This document shows, one piece after another, positions 1,314 through 32,021 of a stretch of DNA of 37,788 bases. Source of the stretch: Verrucomicrobia bacterium GWF2_51_19 (GTDB taxonomy: Bacteria; Verrucomicrobiota; Verrucomicrobiia; Opitutales; UBA12508); contig MIDP01000026.1 of assembly GCA_001831095.1 (NCBI GenBank), positions 1 through 37,788 on the forward strand, read 5' to 3'. A program made the translations under genes and the position numbers. The first letter of the stretch is position 1; every line of letters begins with the position of its first letter. Below the pieces are notes generated by a model. That model was not told where the DNA came from and did no database searches. It saw nothing but the letters and a program-made list of their open reading frames with translations.

Positions 1314-1438
1314 TAAAAGACCTTCGCGAAAGGGCCTATAGCCAGGCCCGAGGAGTGAGGGCGACGGGAGCGTACGTTGGTACGTGACCTAGCCCGAGCG
1401 ACGAGAACGACGCTATAGGTCTTTTTCCATCGTTCTTA
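1314..1438. repeat. Family A palindromic element, copy A1
   Basis: This 125-bp non-coding element fills the fliR-flhB gap. It begins taaaagacc and ends ttctta, has the centre cgtacgttggtacg (about 1371-1384) and shares the core aggcccgaggagtgagggcga with A2 and A3 apart from single changes. Its terminal arms have diverged more than those of A2 and A3. It ends 5 bp before the flhB ATG. Confidence 0.85.
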
Positions 1439-8021: not shown

Positions 8022-8155
8022 AAAAGACCGGTATAAAATGGATGCCAAAATGCGTTTCGCGCTCCGCCGACTGCCTCACGTACGTTTATGTACGCTACGG
8101 CAGATCGTGCTCGCGCAAAGCCACATTCTTGCATCCATTTTATACCGGTCTTTAA
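8019..8155. repeat. Family B palindromic element, copy B1
   Basis: This element has perfect 23-bp terminal inverted repeats, aaagaccggtataaaatgg... at 8023-8045 and its complement at 8131-8153, flanked by TAA on one side and TAA/TTA-like bases on the other. Its centre is cacgtacgtttatgtacgct. The first TAA is the motA stop codon. B2 at 14337-14470 is the closest full copy and 10012-10076 is a half copy. Confidence 0.9.
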
Positions 8156-8180
8156 TCTAACTAAATGAATACCAATAACG

Positions 8181-8304
8181 TAAGACCGTTGAAAAATGCG
8201 CCTATAGCAAGGCCCGAGGAACGAGGGCGACAGGAGCGTACGTTGGTACGTGACTTAGCCAGAGCGACGAGAACGCCGCTAGAGACCATTTTGCAATGGT
8301 CTTA
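8181..8304. repeat. Family A palindromic element, copy A2
   Basis: This 124-bp element begins taagaccgttgaaaaatg and ends cattttgcaatggtctta, giving near-perfect terminal inverted repeats with TA at both outer edges. The centre is cgtacgttggtacg. It is the same length as A3 (31898-32021) and differs from it at only a few positions. It lies 25 bp after B1 and ends 5 bp before the motB ATG. Confidence 0.9.
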
Positions 8305-13115: not shown

Positions 13116-14339
13116 ATGATTACAATCTTTGCATTTCTTTTAGGTCTCAGTCTTGGATGTGCCTATGGCTTGTGGCGCGTGCGGCATTTCCGCGAGCGGG
13201 TGATCCGATTGGAGGTTCAGCAGGAATCAGAAAGGATAGCTTTTAGGGAGAAATTAGAACTACTGGAAGCGAGCAAAGAAAAGCTGGCAGATGCGTTCAA
13301 AGCCCTGGCATCAGAGGCCTTAAACCAGAACAGCGGGACATTTTTATCGCTGGCAGAAAAGAGTTTTGCAACCTTGCAAATGCAGGCGACATCGGAATTG
13401 GACAAAAAAGAGCACTCCTTCAGTCAGTTATTGAGCCCAATAAAGGAGTCGTTGTCGAAGTTCGACGAGCACGTTAAAGGAATCGAAAAGGAGCGCGTCA
13501 ATGCCTACGCCCGTTTGGTTGAAAACATCAGGGAACTTTCCGAAACGCACGGGCTGCTACGAAAAGAGACAGCCAACCTCACCAAGGCCCTCAAGGAGCC
13601 AAACACGCGCGGTCAATGGGGCGAAATGCACCTAAAACGAGCCGTGGAAGCCGCTGGCATGATCGAACACGTCGATTTCGATGAACAGGTACACTTTTCT
13701 GACGGCAACACCATTCAGCGCCCCGACATGGTCATTCGACTGCCCAATGGCCGCACGGTAATCATCGATGCAAAAGTCCCCGATCTCAACCCCTACCTTC
13801 AGGCCATCGAGAGCTCCAATAACGACCGTCAGCGCCACCTCAAAGACTACGCAAGCTACCTCAAGGAACGCCTCGTAAAACTTTCTTCCAAGGCCTATCA
13901 AAAACAATTCGAAGACACTCCTGAGTTTGTCGTCCTCTTTTTGCCCATGGAAAGCTTCTTCAGCGCTGCCCTCGAGGGCGACCCAAGCCTCATCGATTTC
14001 GGTGTACAGTCCAACGTGCTTCTCGCAACGCCCACAACCCTGATCGCACTGCTCAAGGCCGTCGCCTATGGCTGGAAACAAGAGTCCATAACGCGGGAAG
14101 CGAAATACATCCTGAACCTCGGCAACGAGCTCTACAACCGCATCGAGGTCTTCACTCGCCATTTTTCCGACATCCGCAAAGGCCTCGAAAAGGCCGTCGA
14201 CGCCTATAACAGTTCCCTGGCTTCACTCGAACGCAATGTCCTCTCGAGTGCAAAAAAGTTCCACGCGCTCCACTCGTCCTCCTCGACCGAAATCCCCTCG
14301 ATAGCACCGATAGAGGCTGCCCTCAGAGCCTTCGAGTAA
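13116..14339 (+). CDS. rmuC: DNA recombination protein RmuC
   Basis: RmuC-family proteins are thought to be membrane-anchored nuclease-like proteins limiting inversions between short repeats. The product has 407 residues: an N-terminal hydrophobic anchor (about 1-20), a long coiled coil (about 25-160) and the RmuC domain (about 165-370), with TRGQWGEMHLKRAVEAAGM, RPDMVIRLPNGRTVIIDAKVP and FVVLFLPMESFFSAAL. The GTG at 13104 is an alternative start, but it overlaps the only Shine-Dalgarno sequence (GGAG), so I prefer ATG 13116. The stop codon TAA (14337-14339) is the first three bases of element B2. Confidence 0.92.
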   Translation: MITIFAFLLGLSLGCAYGLWRVRHFRERVIRLEVQQESERIAFREKLELLEASKEKLADAFKALASEALNQNSGTFLSLAEKSFATLQMQATSELDKKEHSFSQLLSPIKESLSKFDEHVKGIEKERVNAYARLVENIRELSETHGLLRKETANLTKALKEPNTRGQWGEMHLKRAVEAAGMIEHVDFDEQVHFSDGNTIQRPDMVIRLPNGRTVIIDAKVPDLNPYLQAIESSNNDRQRHLKDYASYLKERLVKLSSKAYQKQFEDTPEFVVLFLPMESFFSAALEGDPSLIDFGVQSNVLLATPTTLIALLKAVAYGWKQESITREAKYILNLGNELYNRIEVFTRHFSDIRKGLEKAVDAYNSSLASLERNVLSSAKKFHALHSSSSTEIPSIAPIEAALRAFE

Positions 14340-14470
14340 AAGACCGATGTAAAATGGCGCCAAAATGCGTTTCGCGCTGCGCCGACTGCCTCACGTACCT
14401 CTATGTACGCTATGGCAGGTCGTGCTCGCACAAAGCCACATTTTTGCATCCATTTTGCATCGGTCTTTTA
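14337..14470. repeat. Family B palindromic element, copy B2
   Basis: This 134-bp copy runs from taaaagaccgatgtaaaatgg to ccattttgcatcggtctttta, with TA at both outer edges. The interior closely follows B1 (gcgccaaaatgcgtttcgcg, cgccgactgcctcacgtac). The first TAA is the rmuC stop. Family C copy C2 follows 50 bp later; together they fill the rmuC-pnp gap of 294 bp. Confidence 0.9.
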
Positions 14471-14520
14471 TTGACTATGCAAGTACTTAGCTTTACGGCA
14501 TTTTTCCCTTCCCATAAAAA

Positions 14521-17509: not shown

Positions 17510-18076
17510 ATGAACAAAGACGTTCCACCGGCTCCTTTCCTTTTGCGCGGCCTAGCCCTCTTGATGGACTGCCTGCTCGCCATGAGCCTTGGTATGGTCG
17601 TAGTTGTCAGACTTTGGCTGCCGATCAAGCACCCCAACGCCCTCGCCGAAATGCAGGCCTGGTCGCAATCCTTTTTGCAAGCCGTTGCCTCAAAAGCCGA
17701 TAACACGCCTATTCCAGCGATGTCTGCGACGATGGTGCAAGCTTCTGAGTTTTTAACCCTCGCCTTTTTTACAGTCGTGTTCGCCTACTTCGTCGCCAAT
17801 GACATGTTCTTAAAGGGCAGTTCGCTCGGCAAGAAGACTTTTCACCTGGCCGTTGTGAACGTCAAGACCCTCGAAACGCCCAACGGCGCGGACCGCATCG
17901 CGCGATCCGGAATCAAGGCCCTTTGCTTGCTCTTCTATGTCCCAATCGTGCTGCTGATCAACTTTCTCATCGTGCCACTCTTCAACAAAAACCGGCGCGC
18001 ACTGCACGACTTTGTTGGCCGCACTCGCGTCATCCATGCACAAAAATTGATAGTTGACAATGATTCTGGCGATTGA
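17510..18076 (+). CDS. RDD-family membrane protein
   Basis: RDD proteins are small membrane proteins of uncertain role, some linked to ion transport. The 188-residue product has hydrophobic segments at about 15-35, 78-100 and 132-155. It carries the family-defining Arg/Asp pair in LLRGLALLMDCLLA (about 11-24) and a C-terminal NKNRRALHDFVGRTRVI, which is typical of the family. I use ATG 17510; the frame opens slightly earlier with a TTG at 17474 that is inside the -35 box. Its last 17 nt overlap the start of tsaD, indicating coupled translation. No functional link between the two is evident. Confidence 0.85.
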   Translation: MNKDVPPAPFLLRGLALLMDCLLAMSLGMVVVVRLWLPIKHPNALAEMQAWSQSFLQAVASKADNTPIPAMSATMVQASEFLTLAFFTVVFAYFVANDMFLKGSSLGKKTFHLAVVNVKTLETPNGADRIARSGIKALCLLFYVPIVLLINFLIVPLFNKNRRALHDFVGRTRVIHAQKLIVDNDSGD

Positions 18077-19112
18077 AAGCTCCTGTGACGAGTCAGCGCT
18101 GGCACTGTTTTCCGAACAAGACGGCATCTGCGGCGAATGGGTGTCCACGCAAATCGAGGCCCACAGACCCTTTGGCGGCGTCGTTCCTGGGCTGGCTGCT
18201 CGAGAACACCTCACAAACTTCTTTCCGCTCCTCGAACAACTGCTGAAGGGAACTCCAAGACCGTTGCAAAATGCGCCTCTGGCAAGGCCCGAGGAGCGAG
18301 TGCATCGCATTGTTGTGACTCAAGGACCAGGCCTAGCAGGCTGCCTCGCGCTGGGCATCAGTCTGGCAAAAGCCCTCTCCTTGGCCTGGGACAAGCCGCT
18401 GTTTGGCGTCAATCACCTCTTGGGCCACGTATTTTCGCCCTTTATCCCACTCTTCGATGCCCATTTTCAAGAAAATCGCCAACGCTACTTTCCGCACCTC
18501 AGCTTGCTGGTGTCGGGCGGCAACACGCTCCTAATCTCGATCGACGCCGATAACTCTATAAAGGTCCTCGCCCAGACGCTCGATGACGCCGCTGGGGAAG
18601 CCCTCGACAAGGGCGCCAAACTCCTCCACCTCCCCTACCCTGGAGGGCCCGAAATTGAGAGAGCCGCTACCGGCGATTCCAGTAAATACACATTTCCCGT
18701 AGCCTTTTCAGAGACCCGCGAGCTCAAATTCAGCTTTTCCGGCCTCAAGACCAGCTTGCGTTATTTTCTGGAAAAATTGCCGCCAGCCACGATCGCCACA
18801 GAGTTTCCCCACATCTGCGCGTCCTACCAACAGGCTGTAATCGACGCTCTCACGCTCAAAGTAAAACAGTGCCTCGCCCAACACACCTTTAACAGTATCG
18901 GCCTCTGTGGCGGCGTCTCCAACAACAAGGCCCTCCGATCCGCTCTAAAAGCCATCGGCGATTCCCATAACATTCCTACACTCACACCTTTCAGTCAACA
19001 CACAGGCGATAACGCCACCATGATCGCCTTCGCCTCCTATATGGCCCCAGAAAAGCTCGTACCATCACAAAAATTCAACTTGGCGTTTCACCCCACCCTG
19101 CGCCTTTCGTAA
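18060..19112 (+). CDS. tsaD: tRNA threonylcarbamoyladenosine transferase subunit TsaD
   Basis: TsaD (with TsaB and TsaE) transfers the threonylcarbamoyl group to A37 of ANN-decoding tRNAs. The 350-residue product has the ASKHA ATPase fold and the metal-binding motif HLLGH (His119, His123), with CGGVSNNKALR and GDNATMIAFA near the C-terminus. The ATG at 18060 overlaps the RDD gene. The unusual feature is residues 66-81 (PRPLQNAPLARPEERV): their codons, 18257-18300, are a family A half-element. Compared with E. coli TsaD, where about 11 residues link the same helices, about 21 are present here. The insert falls before the conserved TQGPGLAG loop, in a place likely to tolerate extra residues. 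Confidence 0.94.
   Translation: MILAIESSCDESALALFSEQDGICGEWVSTQIEAHRPFGGVVPGLAAREHLTNFFPLLEQLLKGTPRPLQNAPLARPEERVHRIVVTQGPGLAGCLALGISLAKALSLAWDKPLFGVNHLLGHVFSPFIPLFDAHFQENRQRYFPHLSLLVSGGNTLLISIDADNSIKVLAQTLDDAAGEALDKGAKLLHLPYPGGPEIERAATGDSSKYTFPVAFSETRELKFSFSGLKTSLRYFLEKLPPATIATEFPHICASYQQAVIDALTLKVKQCLAQHTFNSIGLCGGVSNNKALRSALKAIGDSHNIPTLTPFSQHTGDNATMIAFASYMAPEKLVPSQKFNLAFHPTLRLS
18257..18300 (+). repeat. Family A half-element inside tsaD, in frame
   Basis: The 44 bases aagaccgttgcaaaatgcg...gaggagcgag match the left half of A2/A3 with only a few differences, and stop before the family centre. The frame stays open, encoding residues 66-81 of TsaD. Confidence 0.85.
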
Positions 19113-31897: not shown

Positions 31898-32021
31898 TAA
31901 GACCGTTGAAAAATGGCTCTATAGCAAGGCCCGAGGAGCGAGGGCGACAGGAGCGTACGTTGGTACGTGACTTAGCCCGAGTGACGAGAACGCCGCTAGA
32001 GGACATTTTGCAATGGTCTTA
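31898..32021. repeat. Family A palindromic element, copy A3
   Basis: This 124-bp copy runs from taagaccgttgaaaaatgg to acattttgcaatggtctta and is nearly identical to A2, including the central cgtacgttggtacg. Its right arm forms the 3' end of the SNF2 gene (minus strand), encoding residues 765-772 and the stop codon. Confidence 0.9.

Follow-up and report, generated by a model that had tools for sequence, protein, structure and literature searches.

The tsaD gene and the repeat fragment within it

The stretch of DNA that was analysed (37,788 nt, hereafter the window) comes from the 1.26-Mb draft MAG of an uncultured bacterium of the Opitutales (Verrucomicrobiota), which comprises 43 contigs and is 92% complete. 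Our analysis covers this one draft genome, and the repeats were studied from their sequence and from models. A profile search with the TsaD alignment found the nearest named relatives among the Opitutales and other Opitutae of the Verrucomicrobiota. Two features of the window define the locus:

18060-19112, plus strand: tsaD, encoding tRNA N6-adenosine threonylcarbamoyltransferase (350 aa), with an ATG at 18060 and a score above the cut-off of NCBIfam TIGR03723
18257-18303, plus strand: left half of a family A element (model positions 1-47 of 122) inside tsaD, 43/47 identical to the nearest full copies

The encoded protein scored 320.8 bits against the NCBIfam TsaD equivalog TIGR03723 (the cut-off is 296.1) and was the single TsaD match in the whole draft genome. 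It retains all residues that are invariant in an alignment of 30 sequences, composed of the window protein and 29 same-order relatives. An in-frame TTG at 18054 lies ahead of the ATG. The repeat fragment is 47 nt long. It begins with the third base of codon 66 and ends with the first base of codon 82, R67-V81 being wholly encoded by the element, and the reading frame is open on both sides. This is in agreement with the initial annotation of this DNA, which had described an intact frame around an in-frame repeat fragment, but the limits given there (44 nt encoding residues 66-81) have to be replaced by those above. The repeat finder aligned 18257-18303, in the same register, with three other stretches (1316-1362, 8182-8228 and 31899-31945; 89% to the copy at 8182-8304, which serves as the reference), and a comparison with the bacterium's own genome matched the fragment (query 15-61, which corresponds to 18257-18303) to about 40 other places, the best at 91% with an E value of 3.3e-13. 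The presence of a repeat fragment that is predicted from sequence to be translated within tsaD was thus confirmed, far beyond chance. No right half of family A was found after the fragment, and the half-element gave no significant hairpin (RNA fold z -1.0). The tryptic peptide predicted for the insert and its flank is GTPRPLQNAPLARPEER.

The insert residues are absent from all 29 aligned same-order TsaD proteins, so no relative without family A was found to share them. In the window protein, the loop exceeds that of 24 of the 29 relatives by 11 residues and that of the other five by 9-10; relative to solved structures, it is longer by 9 residues than in E. coli TsaD, close to the excess of about 10 that had been estimated, and by 11 than in T. 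maritima TsaD. The gain of exactly 14-16 residues over relatives that had been expected was not observed, the net gain being 9-11 residues. The usual net gain of 33 nt is smaller than the 47-nt element stretch, which implies that ∼14 nt of poorly conserved host linker were lost, replaced or drifted. A search of 383 further genomes from the class at E ≤ 1e-4 did not recover the full family A repeat. The closest relative by TsaD (G014) contains elements with the same apical core on other arms (98 core matches), and its TsaD is without the insert.

The AlphaFold2 model of TsaD, which was computed from the 30-sequence alignment in line with an earlier proposal to model the structure, has a mean pLDDT of 93.8, and the PDB entries that match it best are the TsaD structures of E. 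coli and Salmonella. Residues 61-80 average 68-71, and neither helix nor strand is predicted at 64-76, a segment flanked by a helix (residues 43-63) and a strand (residues 83-89). In the model, the insert is located in a low-confidence loop of an otherwise confident fold. Among 109 other homologs, this interval varies in length between 16 and 48 residues, and two TsaD proteins from Candidatus Falkowbacteria carry a different palindrome, CTCCTTANTAAGGAG with GC-rich arms, in frame in the same loop (loci L252 and L264, around 1214 and 1207). The site is therefore tolerant, and the initial description of TsaD as a stringent test of tolerance was overstated. The Falkowbacteria palindromes also suggest independent insertions at one site.

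Family A and related palindromic elements

The window contains three full copies of family A and two elements of a second family, family B:

8182-8304, plus strand: family A full copy (reference copy), its end 5 nt upstream of an ATG; one hairpin, z -4.3
31899-32021, plus strand: family A full copy; one hairpin, z -6.3
1317-1438, plus strand: family A full copy, more diverged, ending 5 nt before an ATG
8023-8156, no strand assigned: family B palindromic element; hairpin z -11
14339-14471, no strand assigned: second family B element in the window

The core of family A gave 132 matches in the genome within 3 mismatches, against 0 for a reversed control pattern, and the repeat translated in the tsaD frame gave 150, many of which lie within long open frames. 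From 469 kb of sequence around the copies, 129 near-full copies were collected, and the family A model is 122 nt long. The elements have terminal inverted repeats, with complementary arms of 17 nt and the ends AAGACC...GGTCTT, and both full copies that were tested (8182-8304 and 31899-32021) fold as one long stem-loop, which is the RPE-type shape. The outer arms vary among copies yet pair within copies (0.894 vs 0.782 for shuffled arms, 0/2000), and this co-variation means either that the hairpin is under selection or that one arm has been copied from the other. Target-site duplications were not found; the identity of the flanks was near the shuffled value for lengths of 2-8 nt. Matches to family A were found neither in PLSDB nor in INPHARED, and the exact core was not found in IMG/VR; spread by phage or plasmid was rejected on these grounds. 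A described structured RNA family was likewise rejected, as the window had no Rfam match.

The placement of the copies is strongly oriented. Of 135 copies, 87 have an ORF of at least 100 codons downstream in the sense direction and 28 in the antisense direction; for an in-frame ATG within 30 nt after the element, the corresponding counts are 52 and 3. The majority of family A copies share one orientation immediately 5′ of a start codon, and they are often directly preceded by an AAAGGA-like motif (for example, at 8182-8304 and 1317-1438). With this order of motif, element and ATG, a Shine-Dalgarno-like site and the start codon would lie on opposite sides of the hairpin.

Several other arrangements of the core and arms were observed. 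The core also occurs inside unrelated, site-specific inverted repeats (G000 C35:33420-33519, C37:5579-5672, C14:5004-5108, C16:2146-2251 and C36:33106-33206), an arrangement that would be expected if the core had inserted into the loop of a pre-existing hairpin or if the arms had been exchanged. At least six family A copies (G000 C1:18287, C1:35537, C19:7062, C24:2238, C39:65958 and C3:3400) contain a third palindromic element, AGTCCCGCAGGC...GCCTGCGGGA, always nested at the same point, near model position 87. Family B, for which the genome gave at least 43 substantial matches, has an outer-arm motif, AAGACCG..AAAATGG, that is similar to that of family A, a different interior and, on its reverse strand, a motif similar to the apical motif GAGCGTACNNNNGTACGTGA. 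The latter is found on different arms in two other Opitutales genomes, G014 (98 matches) and G035 (12 matches), as seen at loci L109 and L296-L304. It is conceivable, although we regard it as doubtful, that these elements form an Opitutales hairpin superfamily with the shared apical core GCGTAC-N4-GTACGTGA and exchangeable arms, which would act as a sense-oriented 5′-leader element upstream of starts and sometimes as an N-terminal or internal coding segment. If this were the case, a single sequence would be under RNA-hairpin and peptide constraint together.

Other proteins carrying the repeat

Family A was also found in frame in further proteins:

G000 C5:78205-78325 (L131): full family A element inside MurD, residues 211-250, in frame, 40 residues
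G000 C20:1953-2073 (L125): full element near the N-terminus of a FabF-like enzyme, in frame
About 20 further candidates in which an in-frame element is located at the N-terminus or ahead of it: MnmG, RlmD, ComF, YhbY, Pth, Mpl, FabH, ComEC and others, with part of the names assigned by reading the sequences

In MurD, relatives align in two pieces that flank the element (approximately query residues 4-199 and 260-421), with a net excess of ∼25 residues as counted by hand on the alignment. The pLDDT of the AlphaFold2 model of MurD falls below 50 solely at residues 215-247. In the FabF-like enzyme, the element is located between the upstream ATG and the region matched by the profile, which starts two residues past the element. 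ATG, GTG and TTG codons are all absent from the start of the element to the start of the domain, and as this span offers no alternative start codon, translation of the element is forced. The N-terminal fusions are to be regarded as candidates only, because a downstream ATG or a TTG or GTG within the element could serve as the start; the same caution was given for REPs at N-termini (PMC3733652). Of 35 sense-strand fusions that continue for 80 codons or more past the element, 27 use one phase of the element. One ComEC-like ORF apparently contains both family B and family A in frame in its N-terminal part (L135, G000 C5:12771-12886).

Origin of the TsaD insert and parallels in other genomes

Taken together, the interpretation put forward in the initial annotation is partly supported. 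Very probably, the insert represents the left half of a truncated family A element, mobile or amplified, that is located in a variable surface loop of TsaD (from helix 43-63 to the next strand), is read as ordinary codons and is tolerated. In the most economical history, a full 122-nt copy would first have inserted into the loop, and the right half, together with ∼14 nt of host linker, would then have been lost with the frame left intact. One forward frame is stop-free in many copies (...RPLKNAPIARPEERGRQERTLVRDLARTTRTPLE...) and encodes an Arg-rich, probably disordered peptide, so the repeat can be read through. From the intact gene, the intact conserved residues and the position in a loop, we infer that the insert is neutral or tolerated; TsaD is presumably made and active.

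Retention of the Arg/Pro-rich loop for use, for example in contacting TsaB, TsaE or tRNA, would be compatible with preservation of the frame in an essential gene and with the seven positions out of 47 at which the copy departs from the family consensus, which indicate that there was time to change. However, seven differences is the median of ordinary copies over the same stretch and thus no sign of special conservation, the loop is unstructured and of low confidence in the model, and its length varies freely among homologs; we consider such exaptation improbable. Somewhat less probable still is a chimeric assembly, in which the repeat fragment was misjoined into tsaD in the MAG. A 43-contig draft that is full of similar repeats presents the usual cause of misjoins, but this explanation would need both an entry and an exit inside one gene, with the flanks in order and the frame kept. 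Furthermore, the fragment is not identical to any retrieved copy (the closest is 43/47 identical) and so is not a copied read of another locus, and MurD independently shows the same pattern.

It is very unlikely that the element is transcribed and then not translated, either through ribosome bypassing of the byp type or through removal from the RNA. Full copies do form strong hairpins, and bypassing of palindromes within genes is known (cited in PMC6649704), but the tsaD copy is only a half-element with a z of -1.0, in frame and stop-free, and skipped copies would not require an open frame, whereas the predominant fusion phase is stop-free. Finally, a chance resemblance, or an ancestral TsaD loop as the source of the repeat, for which the length-variable loops at this position in other phyla could speak, was rejected on the basis of the E value of 3e-13 to dozens of copies, the absence of the residues from all 29 aligned relatives, the 132 core matches against 0 in the control and the structure of the other copies, which, unlike the one in tsaD, also include the right half and fold as complete hairpins.

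Coding palindromes are best known from Rickettsia and Wolbachia. RPE-1 to RPE-3 in Rickettsia (Ogata et al. 2000 and 2002) and protein-coding repeats in Wolbachia are summarised in PMC2229807, PMC10969869 and PMC3767692; activity has been demonstrated for a guanylate kinase that bears an RPE insert. Target-site duplication is marked as unknown in PMC2229807 for RPE, as it is for some other MITE-like families. The truncated element in TsaD has its closest parallel here. Family A resembles RPE in being a multi-copy element of ∼105-150 nt with a long hairpin, terminal inverted repeats and an open frame, and in residing in frame, with a preferred phase (27/35), in several unrelated conserved genes (TsaD, MurD, the FabF-like enzyme and the ∼20 N-terminal candidates). 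It differs in its host, which belongs to the Verrucomicrobiota and not to Rickettsia or Wolbachia, in the truncation of the tsaD copy to a half-element and in the strong preference of its copies for one orientation just 5′ of genes. In its size, its hairpin and its in-frame residence in conserved genes, family A works like RPE. The resemblance noted at the outset holds and is stronger than had been claimed, given MurD, the FabF-like enzyme and the many N-terminal fusions.

Other known systems share some of these features. In Opitutus terrae, of the class Opitutae, intragenic GTAG-tagged REPs were reported in ORFs that include both uvrA genes, DNA ligase and RNA helicases (PMC3733652). These are also palindromic repeats within ORFs of an Opitutae bacterium, but GTAG/CGTC REPs are 20-40 bp long and end in GTAG or CGTC, whereas family A comprises 122 nt with the ends AAGACC...GGTCTT. 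In-frame fusions of MITEs have been described for ERIC, the 107-bp Correia element, the Yersinia repeat and Coxiella QMITEs (PMC2229807, PMC5896051). Like family A, with its terminal inverted repeats, they are short inverted-repeat elements with frames that fuse to host ORFs; family A differs from them in that no target-site duplication was found. The coding palindromes of nematomorph mitochondria (PMC6649704) are inverted repeats that are translated in protein genes and whose arms stay complementary, but they are perfect and are not described as an interspersed repeat family. The byp palindromes of Magnusiomyces mitochondria, associated with ribosome bypassing (cited in PMC6649704), differ from family A, which neither interrupts the frame nor introduces a stop in tsaD, MurD or the FabF-like gene.

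Given the REPs in Opitutus terrae (PMC3733652), Verrucomicrobiota were already known to contain coding palindromes, and the novelty attached in the initial annotation to their occurrence in another phylum was overstated. The new aspects are the family itself, the position of its copies immediately 5′ of genes and their occurrence in TsaD and MurD. That a small genome of the Verrucomicrobiota contains over 130 copies, with TsaD and MurD among the affected proteins, suggests that repeat-driven growth of essential proteins arose more than once, and the internal and N-terminal insertions form a natural set for measuring the cost of such peptides to enzymes.
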